A stretch of DNA of 39,547 nucleotides. It comes from Candidatus Poribacteria bacterium (GTDB lineage Bacteria; Poribacteria; WGA-4E; WGA-3G). Below the pieces are notes generated by a model, which was not told the origin of the DNA, made no database searches, and saw only the letters and a program-made list of their open reading frames with translations. How positions within the stretch are numbered: the first letter of the stretch is position 1; every line of letters starts with the position of its first letter. Made by a program: the position numbers and the translations under genes. Below, one piece after another: positions 607-11,743 of the stretch. The stretch lies in contig JAAXHI010000125.1 of the NCBI GenBank assembly GCA_012270875.1, positions 1 through 39,547 of the forward strand, in the 5' to 3' direction.

Positions 607-1641
607 ATGAAAAATTTGTTTATCTCTTTTCTGTTTAATTTGTTATTATGTTTATCAGTTCAAGGCGCGACATTAGAACTCGCTTTTCAACTCGGCGAGA
701 CGCAGCCGCCACGATTGGACAAATTACTCCCAGATGTTGCGCGGCAAATGGTTTTTAATAACGATAGCACGAAGTTAATAGCAAAAGGGATGGGTGGCAC
801 CGTAGTGGAATGGGATCTCCAAACCCGACAGAAACGCGAGATCGGCGACATCCACGAGAAGCGGTGGTTTGCTTATTCCACTGGAACCGACCAGTTGTTA
901 GTCCGAAAAGCGGATGACAATATTACGCTCCTTTCGCTGAAAAATGACCGTGAAACATTGTTGACGCATGGGCAATATGAAAGCGGGAGTCTGTCTGCCG
1001 ATGGCACACTCGCTGTGTTGTCGAAAGGTGATAGTGAAGTTGAGGTTTGGCGACTTGACAAGCAAGGTCCAAAAACTGTAGAAACTGAGAGATCCGCCCA
1101 AAAATTGAAAACGTTTCTGACAGATCTCCCCGTTAGGAACGGTCTTACGCTTTCTAATGACGGTCAATTTATAGCGGCAGCCGAGGGAAGTTACAGAGAC
1201 GGAGAGGGGCATCGGACTGTCATTGAGATTTGGGACACAACGGTTGAAAATCCTATCCAAGTCCTCAATACTGGTGAGATTTTGGGGGTCTGGAACGTGC
1301 TGTTTTCACCCGATGCAACGATGTTGGCTGTTGACACGCAGCAGAACGCGCAATCCGGCATTCGCGTCTGGGAAATTAAAACCGGTAGAAAACTTCTCAC
1401 CAAATCCGGGTTTGAAGCGTACTGGACACGCGCACTCGCCTTTTCACCGAGCAGTAAACACCTTGTATCAGGCGATGAAGCGAGTCATCTTCGGGTCTGG
1501 GACATTTCCGAAGGCGGATCGGTAATTTGGGAGACCTATCCGACAGGCATTCAAGCGTTAGCCTTCTCGCCGAGCGGCGACTATTTGGCAGTGGCATTGT
1601 GGGACGCAACAATTCAGGTGCTATATTGGAGGGAAGAATGA
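607..1641 (+). CDS. Secreted WD40-repeat protein
   Basis: Signal peptide MKNLFISFLFNLLLCLSVQG; WD40 blades such as LAFSPSSKHLVSGDEASHLRVWDIS and LAFSPSGDYLAVALWDATIQVL. Start moved from 580 to 607. Confidence 0.8.
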   Translation: MKNLFISFLFNLLLCLSVQGATLELAFQLGETQPPRLDKLLPDVARQMVFNNDSTKLIAKGMGGTVVEWDLQTRQKREIGDIHEKRWFAYSTGTDQLLVRKADDNITLLSLKNDRETLLTHGQYESGSLSADGTLAVLSKGDSEVEVWRLDKQGPKTVETERSAQKLKTFLTDLPVRNGLTLSNDGQFIAAAEGSYRDGEGHRTVIEIWDTTVENPIQVLNTGEILGVWNVLFSPDATMLAVDTQQNAQSGIRVWEIKTGRKLLTKSGFEAYWTRALAFSPSSKHLVSGDEASHLRVWDISEGGSVIWETYPTGIQALAFSPSGDYLAVALWDATIQVLYWREE

Positions 1642-2159
1642 TGAGTGATGAGAAAAATTTAGAAGAAGGATCTTATATTGATGCAAAAGGACGCACGCGT
1701 TGGCATGAAAACGATAGGCTTTCACTAAAACTCTTGGAGCTCCATACTTTCCTGATTATTGACGACTATCCGGAGGACCACGCAACGCGCTATCCGTGGT
1801 TGGCGCATTATATCTCTCGGTTTCCTGAACCGATGTCAGATTTAATTGCCCAAGGTCGATTGATAGAGGAGCTTCCGGGTGCTGGTGAAGTCATGGCGAA
1901 AATCATTGAGGATTTACTGGAGACTGGCACTACCGAGAAACTGGAGGAGTTCGCCGGTGATACGCCACGGACCGTTGTAGAACTCGTGCCTATCCCTGGG
2001 ATGGGTGCCAAAACAATTAAACGGTTGTATCAAGAGGTCGGTGTGGATAGCCTCGTCTCGCTCCGTGCAGCGATTGATGAAGGGAGACTTAAGGGTTTCA
2101 AAGGCATTGGTAAAAAGACTTTGGAGAAAATTGAGGCATATCTTGATGAATGGCTCTAA
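1638..2159 (+). CDS. Stand-alone PolX-N-terminal-like helix-hairpin-helix protein (copy 1)
   Basis: ELPGAGEVMAKIIEDLLETG, VPIPGMGAKTIKRLYQEVGVDSLVSLRAAIDEGRLKGFKGIGKKTLEKI resembles the HhH/8-kDa region of bacterial PolX. No palm or PHP domain. ATGA overlap with the WD40 gene. Confidence 0.8.
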   Translation: MMSDEKNLEEGSYIDAKGRTRWHENDRLSLKLLELHTFLIIDDYPEDHATRYPWLAHYISRFPEPMSDLIAQGRLIEELPGAGEVMAKIIEDLLETGTTEKLEEFAGDTPRTVVELVPIPGMGAKTIKRLYQEVGVDSLVSLRAAIDEGRLKGFKGIGKKTLEKIEAYLDEWL

Positions 2160-2168
2160 GTTGATTTT

Positions 2169-2197
2169 TTGACGGCTTTTGAGATGTATGATATGCT
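2169..2197 (+). promoter_or_regulatory. Putative sigma70 promoter of the DUF3419 operon
   Basis: TTGACG (2169-2174), 17 bp, TATGCT (2192-2197). Confidence 0.5.
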
Positions 2198-2205
2198 TTT
2201 AAAAG

Positions 2206-3249
2206 TTGATGGGGCGCGCCTTACTCATAACAATGCCCCAAAAAAAATACACACAACGGGTATCTGTGGAGTTGACGGATATGCGGGATAATAAGGTACA
2301 GTTTGCGGTCGTCAGAGAAGACCCGATGGTAGAGGCGGAGTTGGTTCGGTTGACAAAAGCCAACAACGTCCTATTGATTGCTTCTGGTGGGTGTACTGCC
2401 TTAACACTACAGGCACTGTTTCCAGACTTGCATATCACTTTAGTCGACTTTAATCCGGCGCAGTTAGAACGGGTCCGAGAAAAAATGCGCGCCTTGCGAG
2501 AGACCGATACTGCAACACGACATCGGAAATTTAATATTGGCACCAGCGATCCAAGCGGACTCAATCAGAGCGGTAACTTTGAGTCGCTGTTCCGGGGTCT
2601 ACGAGCGTTCATCTTTGATCTGGTCGCTGACGAAACGGAAATCCGCAGGTTGTTTGAAGAGAAAGGGCGGCTTGCGCGTGTTTCAGAGATCCTCTTCTCA
2701 AGCAAGTATTGGTCAGTGGCGTTTGATCTCTACTTTAGCGACTCCCTTCTCAATGCGATGTTTGGTCCAGATGCCACACAGCACGCTGAAACTGGGAGTT
2801 ATCCGCGTTACTTTCAGCGGTTATTTGAAAAAGGGTTGACATCCGCGGAGGCGTTTGATAATTATTTTCTCCACCACGTATTTCTGGGATACTATCTCCA
2901 ACGTCCTGCAAGTCTACCTTACTATCTCTTAGCACCGCCTGCCGATTATCGTTTTCAGATGGTCGAAGGTACGCTGGATCAAGTGCCGGAGCTGCAACGT
3001 TTCGATCTAATATCTCTCTCCAACATCATGGATTGGATGCCGTTAACTGAGATTACCTCGCTGATGCGTCATCTTCAAAATGAGATGAAGCCTGATGCTA
3101 CTGTTCTGTATCGCCAACTCAATAATTACACCGACCTTTCAACGGACTTCGGTGATTCATTCGAGTTCAATCAGGCATTGGGGGTCCGGTTCCAAGAAAT
3201 TGAGCGTAGTCTGTTTTATTCCAGCGTTTATGTCGGAAAAAGGAGATGA
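2206..3249 (+). CDS. DUF3419/BtaA-like S-adenosylmethionine 3-amino-3-carboxypropyl transferase family protein
   Basis: REDPMVEAELVRLTKANNVLLIASGGCTALTLQALFPDLHITLVDFNPAQLERV and LISLSNIMDWM are DUF3419-like. The true start could be 2209 or 2233. Confidence 0.8.
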   Translation: MMGRALLITMPQKKYTQRVSVELTDMRDNKVQFAVVREDPMVEAELVRLTKANNVLLIASGGCTALTLQALFPDLHITLVDFNPAQLERVREKMRALRETDTATRHRKFNIGTSDPSGLNQSGNFESLFRGLRAFIFDLVADETEIRRLFEEKGRLARVSEILFSSKYWSVAFDLYFSDSLLNAMFGPDATQHAETGSYPRYFQRLFEKGLTSAEAFDNYFLHHVFLGYYLQRPASLPYYLLAPPADYRFQMVEGTLDQVPELQRFDLISLSNIMDWMPLTEITSLMRHLQNEMKPDATVLYRQLNNYTDLSTDFGDSFEFNQALGVRFQEIERSLFYSSVYVGKRR

Positions 3250-3255
3250 GCGCCA

Positions 3256-3969
3256 GTGAACGCAAGCATTGACAACATCCTGAAAGAGACGAATGTCCGG
3301 ACGAATCCATATTTTGCATCTTTGCGCGACGGTGCTTTTGCGTTCGATGATTTTGTCGAAACACAAATCCAATTCTATTTTGCCGTCGTGTTCTTCAATC
3401 GTCCGATGGCAGCCCTCGCCGCCAAGATCCCGACATCAGAATTGCGCTTAGAAGTCATTCGCAATGTTTGGGAGGAACACGGTGAAGGCAATACGTCGCT
3501 GATGCATGAGAAAACGTTTCTTGCGTTTCTCGACCGGTTAGCTGACATTAAACCCGAAGATATTGAAGAACGGGCAATGTGGCCCGAAGTCCGCGCCTTT
3601 AATACCGTGCTTGTCGGTGCTTGTGTGATGGATGAATACTTGATCGGTGCGGGTGTTATGGGAATCATTGAGCGGATGTTTTCAGACATCGCAAGTTGGA
3701 TCGGTGAAGAGGTCGTGCGTCACGGCTGGATCCCTGTGGAGAAACTGATTCACTATAATCTCCATGAAGACCTGGATATTAAACATGCGGACGATTTTTT
3801 TGATGTGCTCCGTCCGGCGTGGGAGGCGGATGTCGAAAACAGGTACTATATTGAACAAGGATTGCGTCTCGGTGCGTGCGTCTTCAGTTCGCTGTATGAA
3901 GGACTTTACAAGGCACGAAAACGTCGCATCTATCGCGAGGTACGCGGACCGCATACACGGGCATCGTAG
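3256..3969 (+). CDS. Heme-oxygenase-like iron-containing redox enzyme (HDO/TenA-PqqC fold)
   Basis: FVETQIQFYFAVVFFNRPMAALAAKIP, RNVWEEHGEGNTSLMHEKTFLAFL and HYNLHEDLDIKHADDFFDVL carry the E/H/D pattern of diiron heme-oxygenase-like proteins. GTG start. Confidence 0.75.
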   Translation: MNASIDNILKETNVRTNPYFASLRDGAFAFDDFVETQIQFYFAVVFFNRPMAALAAKIPTSELRLEVIRNVWEEHGEGNTSLMHEKTFLAFLDRLADIKPEDIEERAMWPEVRAFNTVLVGACVMDEYLIGAGVMGIIERMFSDIASWIGEEVVRHGWIPVEKLIHYNLHEDLDIKHADDFFDVLRPAWEADVENRYYIEQGLRLGACVFSSLYEGLYKARKRRIYREVRGPHTRAS

Positions 3970-3986
3970 CAGCATTGAGGAGTCAA

Positions 3987-4808
3987 ATGCGGATAAACCG
4001 TTCTTTGAATATCCGAGAATTACATTGTGAAGAGTGGCAAGTTTTCCAATCACGGGTCGCGGACTTGGAAAAAGGAACAAGCTATCCGTTGGGTGAAGAC
4101 CGGTTTGAGATTGATCACGGTGCGGATTATTTTGCTTTCTTTACGCGTCTGGGGCAGCTCCACTACTACGTGGTACTCGACGGAGAACGGGTGGTAGCGG
4201 TAGCCGCTGCGATCTTGCGTAGTGTGCCACCAGCGAGTCGTGAAAAGCCAAAATCGGTCTGGTATCTGTGTGACTTAAAAGTCCACCCCGAATACCGCGG
4301 ACGCTATCTGCCAGCCTCAATATTCACGCGTGCCTTTCCGAAACTCTATCCTCGCTGCGCTCGCGGATATGCCGTCTCTATGGATGCAGACACGGAACGT
4401 CCGAACCGCGTTGCGCTCATGCTAAAGCGTTTTCGACTCGCGCCGATGTCGATCGCAACACAGTTAGGGATTGTTTCTTTGGATGCTAAACAGATGCAAG
4501 AAACCGAACCTGTTTTACGAGAACATTTTGGGCCCGTCTCTTACTTGTCGTTGGCAGGGAAAAAAGACATCATTCTGCAAAGCACCGGTACCCCGATGCC
4601 GCTGTTGCACGTTCAGTTCGGTCCGTGTGCGGCGCAAGGGTTCCCCGAGCCGCTTGAGGGTTATATCCACATGTTCTGTGTTTCGGTAGACCATCCACTG
4701 CTTGAAGTGCTGAGGCATCAAAGGATTTATCCGTCAGCCACAGCCACAGTTATCCATCATCGTATGGAGAAGTGGGACTGGAGTTTCATCCTCACCAGCG
4801 ACATCTAA
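3987..4808 (+). CDS. GNAT-like N-acetyltransferase
   Basis: YYVVLDGERVVAVAAAILR...SVWYLCDLKVHPEYRGRYLPASIFTRAF is a GNAT core; 17 bp after the HDO gene. ORF track starts at TTG 3975; ATG 3987 preferred. Confidence 0.7.
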   Translation: MRINRSLNIRELHCEEWQVFQSRVADLEKGTSYPLGEDRFEIDHGADYFAFFTRLGQLHYYVVLDGERVVAVAAAILRSVPPASREKPKSVWYLCDLKVHPEYRGRYLPASIFTRAFPKLYPRCARGYAVSMDADTERPNRVALMLKRFRLAPMSIATQLGIVSLDAKQMQETEPVLREHFGPVSYLSLAGKKDIILQSTGTPMPLLHVQFGPCAAQGFPEPLEGYIHMFCVSVDHPLLEVLRHQRIYPSATATVIHHRMEKWDWSFILTSDI

Positions 4809-5023: not shown

Positions 5024-5491
5024 ATGGCAAGAAGATCACTCACTGATGGTGAAATGGTTGATGGCAAAAAGCACGGATATTGGATTACCTATTACGCGAA
5101 TGGCAATAAGCGGAGCGAAGGTAACTACATTCAGGGTAAGAAGGACGGTCCTTGGATCACTTACCACAAAAATGGAAACAAGGCAGGTGAAGCCTCCTTC
5201 CGCGACGACAAATACGAAGGTCCCTGCATAACCTACCATGAAAACGGGAACCTCAGATCCACGGGGTCTTATCCGAAACATGTGGGTAAATCCTACGACG
5301 GGAAAAAGGAAGGTCCGTTTTACGGGTACGAAGAGGATGGCAAAACGGTGTGGCACATCGTAACCTACAAAAAGGGCGGTGCTCGTGCGAAACCGGATGA
5401 ATATCCGCAGGGTGTCTGCGGCGTTTGCGGCGAAGGGAGACGTTTGGCGTGGGGTGATACCTGTCCGAAATGCGGCGCAGAGTTGGATTAG
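5024..5491 (+). CDS. MORN-variant repeat protein with C-terminal zinc ribbon (copy 1)
   Basis: Repeats of the type GYWITYYANGNKRSEGNYIQGKKDGPWITYHKNGNK; C-terminal CGVCGEGRRLAWGDTCPKCGAELD. Confidence 0.8.
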   Translation: MARRSLTDGEMVDGKKHGYWITYYANGNKRSEGNYIQGKKDGPWITYHKNGNKAGEASFRDDKYEGPCITYHENGNLRSTGSYPKHVGKSYDGKKEGPFYGYEEDGKTVWHIVTYKKGGARAKPDEYPQGVCGVCGEGRRLAWGDTCPKCGAELD

Positions 5492-5508: not shown

Positions 5509-6030
5509 ATGAAAAGTAAAAATGCATTAGGTGAAGGCTTAATTGAAGCAGCAGACCGTAGTGATACTTTCGCACTGACCAACGATGAAATTGCGAAGAA
5601 ACTAATGGAACTCCACACGATTCTGATTGTCGCCGACTACCCAGAAGACCACGCAGCGCGCTACCCTCGCTTAGCATATACAATTTCTCGCATGGAGGCA
5701 TCTGTAGCGGAACTGGTCGCTCAAGGACGGTTGAAAGAGGAGATTCCAGGTGTTGGAGACATAGTTGCTACGATTATCACTGAATACGTTGAAAGCGGAA
5801 CGTGCTCGAAATTACAGGAATACGCAAGTGATGTCCCACAGACAATTGTTGAACTTATACCTATCCCCGGACTTGGTCCTAAAACAATTAAACTTCTGTA
5901 TCAGGCGGTAGGTGTTGACAGTCTCCTATCACTCCGAACGGCAATCGATGCGGGTAAGTTGAAAGGTGTCAAAGGCATCGGTAAGAAAACGATAGAGAAT
6001 TTCGAGAAATACCTTGATGCGAATTTGTAG
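5509..6030 (+). CDS. Stand-alone PolX-N-terminal-like helix-hairpin-helix protein (copy 2)
   Basis: IPGVGDIVATIITEYVESG, IPIPGLGPKTIKLLYQAVGVDSLLSLRTAIDAGKLKGVKGIGKKTIENF; paralogue of 1638-2159. Confidence 0.8.
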   Translation: MKSKNALGEGLIEAADRSDTFALTNDEIAKKLMELHTILIVADYPEDHAARYPRLAYTISRMEASVAELVAQGRLKEEIPGVGDIVATIITEYVESGTCSKLQEYASDVPQTIVELIPIPGLGPKTIKLLYQAVGVDSLLSLRTAIDAGKLKGVKGIGKKTIENFEKYLDANL

Positions 6031-8743: not shown

Positions 8744-9211
8744 ATGGCAAAATCGCTTACTGATGGTGAGATGCGCAACGGCAAGAAGCACGGGTATTGG
8801 GTCACCTATTACGCGAACGGCAATAAGCGGAGCGAAGGTGGCTACATTGAAGGGAAAAAAGAGGGATTTTGGGTTCAGTACCACAAAAACGGGAACAAGG
8901 CGAGCGAAGCCTCTTTTCGTGATGGTAAGAACGAAGGCGACTACGTATGCTATTATGAGAACGGAAACCGAAAATGGGGCGGTCCCTACCGGGAACATGA
9001 TGGCGGTTCCGCCGATGGTAGAAAAGAAGGGGTCTGGCTCTGCTACGAAGAAGACGGCGAAACGGTATGGCGTATCATCACCTACAAGAAAGGCGGTGCT
9101 CGCGCGAAACCTGATGAATATCCACTCGGCGAATGCCATGTTTGCGGCGAAGGCAGACGTTCAACGTGGGGTGATACCTGTCCACAATGCGGCGCAGAGA
9201 TTGGTGAATAA
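8744..9211 (+). CDS. MORN-variant repeat protein with C-terminal zinc ribbon (copy 2)
   Basis: MAKSLTDGEMRNGKKHGYWVTYYANGNKRSEGGYIEGKKEGFWVQYHKNGNK...CHVCGEGRRSTWGDTCPQCGAEIGE; close paralogue of 5024-5491. Confidence 0.8.
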   Translation: MAKSLTDGEMRNGKKHGYWVTYYANGNKRSEGGYIEGKKEGFWVQYHKNGNKASEASFRDGKNEGDYVCYYENGNRKWGGPYREHDGGSADGRKEGVWLCYEEDGETVWRIITYKKGGARAKPDEYPLGECHVCGEGRRSTWGDTCPQCGAEIGE

Positions 9212-9214
9212 TCA

Positions 9215-11743
9215 GTGGAAATTTTGAAGTTTTTTATCCGAATTAAGTTTCAATGGGTAAATAAACATACCCATAGAAAACCGAGGATAAAACAATTGGA
9301 AATTAAGTCAAGTGTTTGGGTGTTACTAATAGCGTTTTTTGCTTTACAATTTCCAAGCGTGGTAAAGGCTGAAATCAAAGAAGACGCCGCGCACAGAGTT
9401 GCGACTGCTGTCCGAATCAAAGATGCACCACCGAAGTTAGATGGCGTTTTAGATGACGACATCTGGCAGGCCGCGCCCCTCCATGAAGGCTTCCGTCAAC
9501 GTGATCCCGATGAAGGCGAACCCGCTTCCCAACGCACCACTTTCCAAGTTGCTTACGATGATGAGGCAGTCTATTTCGCTGTCATGTGCTATGACAGTGA
9601 ACCCGATAAGATTGTTTCTCGGCTCGTCAGACGCGACGAGTATGTTGACTCCGATAAAGTTCAGATTATCCTTGATCCGCACTACAACCGACAGCGCGGT
9701 TTCTCATTTACCGTCTATCCTTCGGGTTCTATCATAGATGGTATTGTCGGAGGCGGCGGTCCAGGGGGTTGGAGCAACGCGTGGGACGGCGTATGGGAAG
9801 CAAAGACCCGTATTCACAAAGACGGGTGGGCGGTGGAGTGTAGAATCCCGTTTTATATGTTCCGCTTTTCACCGAAAGACGAATACACATGGGGACTACA
9901 GGTAGAACGCGAGATTAGCCGCAGGAAAGAGCGTGCGCACTGGCGTTTGATTAGAAAAGGTGAACCCGGTTGGATCGCGCGTTTTGGTGATCTGATCGGA
10001 ATAAAAAACATCTACCCGTCTCGCCATTTAGAATTGATACCGTACGCGATGGGCAGGACAACCTTAAACAGCAATACAGATTTGTGGGGGAATGTTGGCG
10101 GTGATGTCCAATACGGTATTACCTCTGGAATCACGCTCAACTCCACAATCAATCCCGATTTCGGACAGGTGGAGGCGGACCCTGCCACTTTGAATCTTTC
10201 TGCTTATGAGGAGTTTTTTGAGGAACGGAGACCCTTTTTCGTCAAAGGTTCATCCGTTTTTAACTTCGGCGCGGGAGAAAGTCAATTCTTTTACTCACGT
10301 CGCATCGGACGACAACCCGGGCATTTTGAGGTTCCGAATGGTGCTATTGAACTGAGCCGTCCGGAAGCGACAACGATTCTGGGGGCTGCCAAAGTCGTCG
10401 GGAGAACCAACAGCAACACCTCCTTCGGTATCATGGAGGCTGTCACGGCACCGGAGTATGCGCAAATTACGAAAAAAGGCGAGAACAGCGATCACTTGAT
10501 TGAACCTTTAACGAACTATTTTGTCGGTCGAGTGACACAAGATGTCTTGGAAGGAAACTCTCGCGTCGGACTGATAACCACGGCGGTCAATCGACAGACT
10601 TCCAACGCCGCTTATGTCGGTGGGCTTGACTGGGATTTGAAACTTGCGAAAGAGCGGTACCAAATAAGTGGGATGCTCGCCGCAAGCCAAGCCGGAGCAT
10701 TGGAGGCACGCAAATCGGGTTATCTCGCAAATATTGAATTTGAAAAACAGGGTGGCTGGTGGCGGCTTGATACCAGTTTTAATGTGCTTTCCCCCGACTT
10801 TGAAATAAATGACATAGGCTATGTTCAACGCGGCGATATGATGCGGTGGTTCTATGACTTGCTCCTCAAGAAAGAGCAGCCGTTTAGCATTTTCCGAGAA
10901 GTCACTGTCGGTCTCTACGGTTGGCGAGAATGGAATTATGATGGCGTTAGCATCGGGCGTTACTCCGAGATATGGACAGATGGCAGACTCAAAAACTATT
11001 GGGAGTATGACCTTTGGGTGGGTCGCAACTTGGAGTCATTTAATGACGAGGATGTCTGGCGGGGTGGGACGCTAATTAAGAACCCTGCGGGTTGGTGGAT
11101 TTTTAGCCGACTTTCTACGGATAGCCGTAAAATGGTGCAGCTTGAACTAAATCCGATCTTCGCATGGGACGATGATACAAATAGTTCTGAAAAAGAGGTA
11201 AGTCTTCGTCTGAAGATTCGTCCGGCGTCAAACATTGAACTGAGTATCGGACCGATGTATCGCTATCGGATTGACGATGCCCAGTGGGTTGAGTTAGTTG
11301 AAGAAAACATCAGTGGGCAGCGCAAAAAACACTACGTCTATGGCGAGTTAACGAGTCAAACATTGGACTTCACCACCCGCGCGAACATCAGTTTTACACC
11401 CACACTGAGCCTCCAATTCTACGTGCAACCCTTCATTACCATCGGCGACTATGCCAACTTCAAAGCGTTAGTCGAGCCGAGGACCTATCAGTTCAAACCC
11501 TATCCACTGAAGCGAAACCCTGATTTCCATCGGCGTTCGTTAAGAGGTAACACTGTCCTTCGCTGGGAATTCCGTCCGGGCAGTACGCTGTTTTTGGTGT
11601 GGTCTCAATCGCGTGCGATGGCGTTAGAAGACATCGGAGCAGACGACTTAGAGTTTCGTCCGTTTCACCGATTGCGAAGCAGTTTTACCGATGAAGGGAC
11701 AAACATTTTCCTGATAAAATGCCGGTATTGGTTTGGGATTTGA
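9215..11743 (+). CDS. DUF5916 outer-membrane beta-barrel protein with N-terminal CBM9-like domain
   Basis: DAPPKLDGVLDDDIWQAAPLHEGFRQRDPDEGEPASQRTTFQVAYDDEAVYFAV and NPDFGQVEADPATLNLSAYEEFFEERRPFFVKG are DUF5916 hallmarks. Start uncertain (GTG 9215). Confidence 0.85.
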   Translation: MEILKFFIRIKFQWVNKHTHRKPRIKQLEIKSSVWVLLIAFFALQFPSVVKAEIKEDAAHRVATAVRIKDAPPKLDGVLDDDIWQAAPLHEGFRQRDPDEGEPASQRTTFQVAYDDEAVYFAVMCYDSEPDKIVSRLVRRDEYVDSDKVQIILDPHYNRQRGFSFTVYPSGSIIDGIVGGGGPGGWSNAWDGVWEAKTRIHKDGWAVECRIPFYMFRFSPKDEYTWGLQVEREISRRKERAHWRLIRKGEPGWIARFGDLIGIKNIYPSRHLELIPYAMGRTTLNSNTDLWGNVGGDVQYGITSGITLNSTINPDFGQVEADPATLNLSAYEEFFEERRPFFVKGSSVFNFGAGESQFFYSRRIGRQPGHFEVPNGAIELSRPEATTILGAAKVVGRTNSNTSFGIMEAVTAPEYAQITKKGENSDHLIEPLTNYFVGRVTQDVLEGNSRVGLITTAVNRQTSNAAYVGGLDWDLKLAKERYQISGMLAASQAGALEARKSGYLANIEFEKQGGWWRLDTSFNVLSPDFEINDIGYVQRGDMMRWFYDLLLKKEQPFSIFREVTVGLYGWREWNYDGVSIGRYSEIWTDGRLKNYWEYDLWVGRNLESFNDEDVWRGGTLIKNPAGWWIFSRLSTDSRKMVQLELNPIFAWDDDTNSSEKEVSLRLKIRPASNIELSIGPMYRYRIDDAQWVELVEENISGQRKKHYVYGELTSQTLDFTTRANISFTPTLSLQFYVQPFITIGDYANFKALVEPRTYQFKPYPLKRNPDFHRRSLRGNTVLRWEFRPGSTLFLVWSQSRAMALEDIGADDLEFRPFHRLRSSFTDEGTNIFLIKCRYWFGI

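Follow-up and report, generated by a model that had tools for sequence, protein, structure and literature searches.

Results

Organization of the locus

The window analysed here, a stretch of 39,547 nucleotides, comes from a draft genome (5.7 Mb; G000) of a Candidatus Poribacteria bacterium, whose phylum is known chiefly through uncultured symbionts of sponges. Near its start lie three co-directional ORFs, at positions 2281 to 4808, with intervening gaps of 6 and 17 bp (Table 1), confirming the tight spacing described in an earlier sequence-only reading of this DNA. The mechanically called ORF of gene 1 opens at 2206; the ATG at 2281 is most likely the true start, because in several relatives either a stop codon or no start codon lies upstream of this ATG, and because the homologous proteins begin at the same residue.

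The sequence-only reading had also given the three genes (hereafter the triad) a promoter-like site of their own. A σ70-like site is present upstream, but our promoter scan found 6 such sites where 4.6 ± 1.8 would be expected. Nor is the DNA ahead of the triad conserved: the gene that precedes it within the genus is either of the HHH or of the LamG kind. As the upstream DNA varies and the number of sites is close to expectation, a dedicated promoter is unsupported. Genes with HHH domains and MORN repeats are paired around the triad in the window and cross-match copies in relatives, suggesting local duplication with relocation of the triad between neighbours.

Table 1. Features at and around the triad (window positions)
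Feature	Position	Strand	Evidence
HHH/MORN gene	1641-2159		Paired around triad
σ70-like site	2169-2197		Promoter scan
Gene 1, DUF3419 (BtaA-related) SAM-dependent transferase (predicted), 322 aa	2281-3249	+	Pfam DUF3419; invariant motifs; start from relatives
Gene 2, haem-oxygenase-like diiron oxidase (HDO), 237 aa	3256-3969	+	Pfam Haem_oxygenas_2; ligands; PDB relatives
Gene 3, GNAT-like protein, 273 aa, atypical CoA loop	3987-4808	+	Weak Acetyltransf_1; Foldseek on low-confidence model; loop
HHH/MORN gene	5024-5491		Paired around triad
HHH/MORN gene	5509-6030		Paired around triad
HHH/MORN gene	8763-9227		Paired around triad

Gene 1 keeps BtaA's SAM-side motifs but not its central region

Gene 1 had been assigned to DUF3419, and the profile match bears this out (Pfam DUF3419, E=2.3e-25; 90 bits vs. 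a cut-off of 28.2). The same family (PF11899) includes BtaA, the diacylglycerol:SAM 3-amino-3-carboxypropyltransferase; BtaA is a known aminocarboxypropyl transferase, and the characterised activity of DUF3419 is lipid head-group synthesis (PMC10491745). Direct alignment with four rhizobial BtaA proteins shows that the triad proteins share E-D-P, S-G-G-C, D-x-N-P, D-W and R-S-x-x-Y with BtaA, and S-G-G-C-T, D-x-N and R-S-x-F-Y are invariant among them, the Mycobacterium protein described below included; the SAM-side motifs of BtaA are therefore kept, a point on which the earlier proposal could have failed. All aligned triad proteins nevertheless differ from BtaA: they lack its central region, with the GRRRI...YRxGLLG and KSSLFGLGIPPQQ stretches; they are shorter, at about 322 residues, and carry GGCT in place of the GGCN of BtaA; and they are partnered by an HDO and a GNAT-like protein rather than by BtaB. 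In a phylogenetic tree the triad proteins, including that of Mycobacterium, form one group apart from BtaA (branch support 100/98), a grouping to be read with caution as regards the Mycobacterium protein, whose branch is very long (3.2 changes per column). A search of solved structures with the DUF3419 protein returned only chance-level matches and no BtaA structure, and searches of Pfam, NCBIfam and PDB showed no resemblance of gene 1 to known SAM cyclases.

One of the rhizobial BtaA genes is followed directly by a BtaB-like methyltransferase gene. No BtaB gene adjoins the triad, and a query with that rhizobial BtaB against five carrier genomes returned only generic partial matches (21-41% identity), none convincing, in agreement with the earlier statement that no BtaB-like N-methyltransferase lies nearby.

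A second, frameshift-broken DUF3419 gene occurs in genome G040 (L084:5882-12752, G040:C403, minus strand). Nearby are ORFs for a GNAT that is related to gene 3, a protein resembling long-chain aldehyde decarbonylase, an MmgE/PrpD protein, a Shikimate_DH-like reductase and an aminotransferase-like protein; the locus is possibly another cluster of a DUF3419 protein with a diiron enzyme and a GNAT.

Gene 2 retains a complete HDO diiron site

Gene 2 exceeds the cut-off for Pfam Haem_oxygenas_2 (E=4.2e-18), and a sequence-profile search of solved structures retrieved HrmI (1.9e-5), CADD (2.2e-5) and BesC (2.6e-4), in line with its earlier identification as an HDO. Alignment with HrmI places the diiron ligands at E74, H84, E139, H170, D174 and H177: a glutamate and a histidine on helix 1, a glutamate on helix 2, and H-x3-D-x2-H on helix 3. 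All six are invariant in 12 of 12 sequences from two phyla, and gene 2 thus has the ligand set of the three-His/three-carboxylate type of the superfamily (HrmI, BesC, CADD/pABA synthase, UndA); it differs from the solved members in its low identity to all of them and in its pairing with DUF3419 and GNAT genes. The sequence-only reading had located a plausible set in EEHGEG...MH and HEDLDIKHADD; it was right as to the kind of set, but the HrmI alignment makes H84 the ligand and not H75 of “EEHGEG”. The AlphaFold model of this protein (mean pLDDT 41) was left unused.

We considered whether gene 2 is a self-sacrificing pABA synthase of the CADD type and rejected this assignment. CADD sacrifices its own Tyr27 and Lys152 (PMC11965152); the corresponding residues in the triad HDO are F20, which adjoins an invariant Y19, and I/L149, the latter position being counted on from the E142/E139 match in the HMMER alignment. 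The score against the NCBIfam CADD family is 28.4 vs. a cut-off of 200.

Gene 3 is a GNAT-like protein with an atypical CoA loop

The match of gene 3 to Pfam Acetyltransf_1 falls just below the cut-off (E=8.2e-4; 20.1 vs. 20.7 bits), and 10 of 12 members match this family. Its AlphaFold model is of low confidence (pLDDT 51.7) and was taken for broad fold only; at that level the secondary structure follows the GNAT order, and the Foldseek matches listed are GNATs or tandem GNATs throughout, histidine acetyltransferase and small-molecule N-acetyltransferases among them. Gene 3 thus resembles the GNAT N-acetyltransferases (AAC(3), AAC(6′), histidine acetyltransferase, tandem GNATs) by a weak profile match and a fold-level match of a low-confidence model, and is possibly a tandem GNAT itself. 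It departs from them in having a C-terminal extension, which is conserved through to its final residue, and in its CoA pyrophosphate loop, where all members have R/Q-G/R-x-[Y/N/L]-x-P in place of R/Q-x-x-G-x-G/A. The earlier assignment to GNAT thus finds support in the broad fold of a low-confidence model, whereas the usual CoA loop is absent; as the loop is atypical in all members, ordinary use of acetyl-CoA is not assured, and acylation by gene 3 appears less certain than that assignment implied.

The triad is inherited as a block in Poribacteria

A contig scan found at least 18 loci, all from Poribacteria and each with all three genes in the same order; the triad is still complete in loci as distant as 65-75% identity. 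Of 85 Poribacteria genomes, an identical set of 22 carries full-length copies of the HDO gene, the GNAT-like gene and the DUF3419 gene of triad type, and no genome has just one or two of them intact (Fisher p about 8e-21, a value that, as the genes are adjacent, describes gain and loss as a block). The co-occurrence on which the earlier proposal depended thus holds in 22/22 Poribacteria carriers and, as shown below, in a second phylum.

Losses tell the same story of block behaviour. Two genomes, G022 and G032, contain only deletion scars of the triad, located between the genes that flank it in the window, and the deletion in each took out gene 2 along with all, or nearly all, of gene 1 and all or most of gene 3: in G022, a single-contig genome, residues 1-32 of gene 1 are fused to residues 62-273 of a decayed gene 3 and gene 2 is absent; in G032 the last 24 residues of gene 3 are the sole remnant. 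The flanks differ between lineages (in L037 and L038 the triad lies between SelO and a PQQ-repeat protein), and the gene order persists despite altered flanks in other Poribacteria families as well as in Mycobacterium. With dN/dS of 0.06-0.13 for each gene, all three are under purifying selection. Comparative genomics thus shows that the three genes form one biosynthetic cassette, and its status as a unit is well supported.

Extra copies were seen in two genomes: G031 has two with the same scores on two contigs (L070 C17 and L071 C61), and the second copy in G006 is cut by a contig end (L069, C172). They represent recent duplication or assembly redundancy.

The triad recurs on a mycobacterial plasmid

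A search of a plasmid collection gave a single match for gene 1 and a single match for gene 3, both on the same linear plasmid of Mycobacterium riyadhense, which extends the sampling of the triad to two phyla. The annotated gene order there is DUF3419, “iron-containing redox enzyme”, GNAT and then an RND transporter. The window and Mycobacterium proteins are 26.6% identical over 335 columns for gene 1, 35.6% over 219 columns for gene 2 and 39.5% over 86 columns for gene 3. Independent tblastn values for this record are 2e-40, 9e-16 and 1e-4; the HMM E-values (A2, A3) are circular, as the record is a row of both, and do not count as evidence. The same gene order in Mycobacterium makes a chance neighbourhood very unlikely.

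An HDO of the triad kind is also encoded on six Streptomyces plasmids. Three of these records were checked: their HDO shares 60% identity with that of Mycobacterium, and none of the three carries a triad-type DUF3419 or GNAT; the HDO can therefore exist apart from its two partners. On the two annotated records, a 558-bp gene for an EF-hand protein precedes the HDO gene (L040:14277-15663 and L041:11277-12675); the third record is unannotated. No homologue of the HDO was found in a phage collection, in viral contigs or in a PHROGs search.

Discussion

Our results suggest a working model for the cassette, which we hold tentatively: its enzymes would attach a SAM-derived aminocarboxypropyl group to an acceptor, then oxidise and acylate the amino acid so formed. 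The DUF3419 enzyme would bind SAM as BtaA does and move the 3-amino-3-carboxypropyl group to an acceptor, as BtaA is the characterised DUF3419 enzyme (PMC10491745); the acceptor is probably not that of BtaA, because the central region of BtaA is missing from the triad protein. The product would have a free α-amino acid end. Characterised HDOs, of which there are about a dozen examples, catalyse unusual oxidations mostly of amino or fatty acids (PMC13108848), and the triad HDO, with its full three-His/three-carboxylate site, may accordingly oxidise this amino acid; desaturation, C-C cleavage, N-oxygenation and ring closure are examples of what the step could be. The GNAT-like protein may then acylate the amine, or act at a different nucleophile, and so complete the product or mask it; this is the weakest step of the model. 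In Mycobacterium the product would leave the cell through the adjoining RND exporter; Poribacteria have no conserved dedicated exporter. Several points weigh against this model: a DUF3419 protein could in principle carry out other SAM chemistry; the Mycobacterium branch of the family is very long; the CoA loop of gene 3 is atypical; the Streptomyces plasmids (three records checked) have the HDO and neither partner; and the sampling of triad carriers covers just two phyla.

A related reading keeps the transferase chemistry and has a lipid as the acceptor, as for BtaA: the DUF3419 protein would use diacylglycerol or a similar lipid to make an ether lipid of the homoserine type, and the HDO and GNAT-like protein would modify the head group with no methylation. 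The characterised lipid head-group synthesis by DUF3419 (PMC10491745), the RND/MmpL-type exporter beside the Mycobacterium copy, and the proximity of a DUF3419 gene to aldehyde-decarbonylase-like and GNAT-like ORFs in G040 are all consistent with it. We consider it rather unlikely, however, given that the triad proteins lack the central stretches of BtaA and that no lipid-metabolism gene is conserved beside the triad in Poribacteria.

The reduced size of the triad DUF3419 protein and its missing central region would also fit an enzyme that acts on SAM alone, cyclising the aminocarboxypropyl arm (to azetidine-2-carboxylate, ACC or homoserine lactone, for example) and leaving the HDO and GNAT-like protein to modify a small amino acid; cyclases with a methyltransferase fold do exist (PMC10491745). 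Such an activity is improbable in our view: the motifs of the triad protein are those of BtaA, and the profile and structure searches described above revealed no kinship with known SAM cyclases.

A reading in which gene 1 serves ordinary synthesis of the betaine lipid DGTS, the N-methyltransferase being encoded elsewhere and the HDO and GNAT being neighbours with separate roles, could draw on the DUF3419 family match of gene 1 and on the abundance of generic methyltransferases in the genome. It is very improbable: the partial matches to rhizobial BtaB are at the level expected of any methyltransferase, and the HDO and GNAT have a carrier set identical to that of DUF3419 and adjoin it again in another phylum. 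The earlier conclusion that ordinary betaine-lipid synthesis does not explain the triad is thus supported. Because co-occurrence is conserved, the SAM motifs and six metal ligands are kept, no BtaB lies nearby and five carrier genomes hold no convincing one elsewhere, a dedicated pathway other than betaine-lipid synthesis is the better reading.

Finally, modification by the triad of a small precursor peptide encoded nearby (a RiPP cassette) can be given hardly any credence: HDOs do include at least one peptide modifier (PMC13108848), but the three genes are separated by 6 and 17 bp and what flanks them on either side varies by lineage, so that no conserved adjacent precursor gene was seen and an adjacent precursor was rejected.

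The enzyme families themselves are known; the combination of DUF3419, HDO and GNAT appears to be new. A partial literature search found no publication linking DUF3419 with HDO (“heme oxygenase-like”) proteins. The text of a 2026 review of HDOs contains no DUF3419/GNAT partnership and mentions neither methyltransferases, acetyltransferases nor homoserine (PMC13108848), and a genome-neighbourhood study of HDOs examined ATP-grasp partners (PMC13185094). The triad is thus apparently an undescribed, small three-enzyme pathway common to sponge-dwelling bacteria and one mycobacterium. It might, with less than even confidence on our part, represent an undescribed class of small natural-product cassette that re-purposes a SAM aminocarboxypropyl transferase of the BtaA type to make a non-proteinogenic amino acid, which a diiron HDO then oxidises, in sponge symbionts and an actinobacterium. 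As a compact set of three genes it is a directly expressible target, and could reveal both a new aminocarboxypropyl acceptor and a new HDO reaction.

Judged by titles, the papers in the literature searched that mention DUF3419 concern algae, plants and a fungus. A plasmid of Roseinatronobacter sp. S2 (L072:287-8271) encodes a full-length DUF3419 protein within a gene run that also comprises a UbiA prenyltransferase, an AMP-binding protein, a PPDK-like protein and two products with no Pfam match, a context that does not look like betaine-lipid synthesis.
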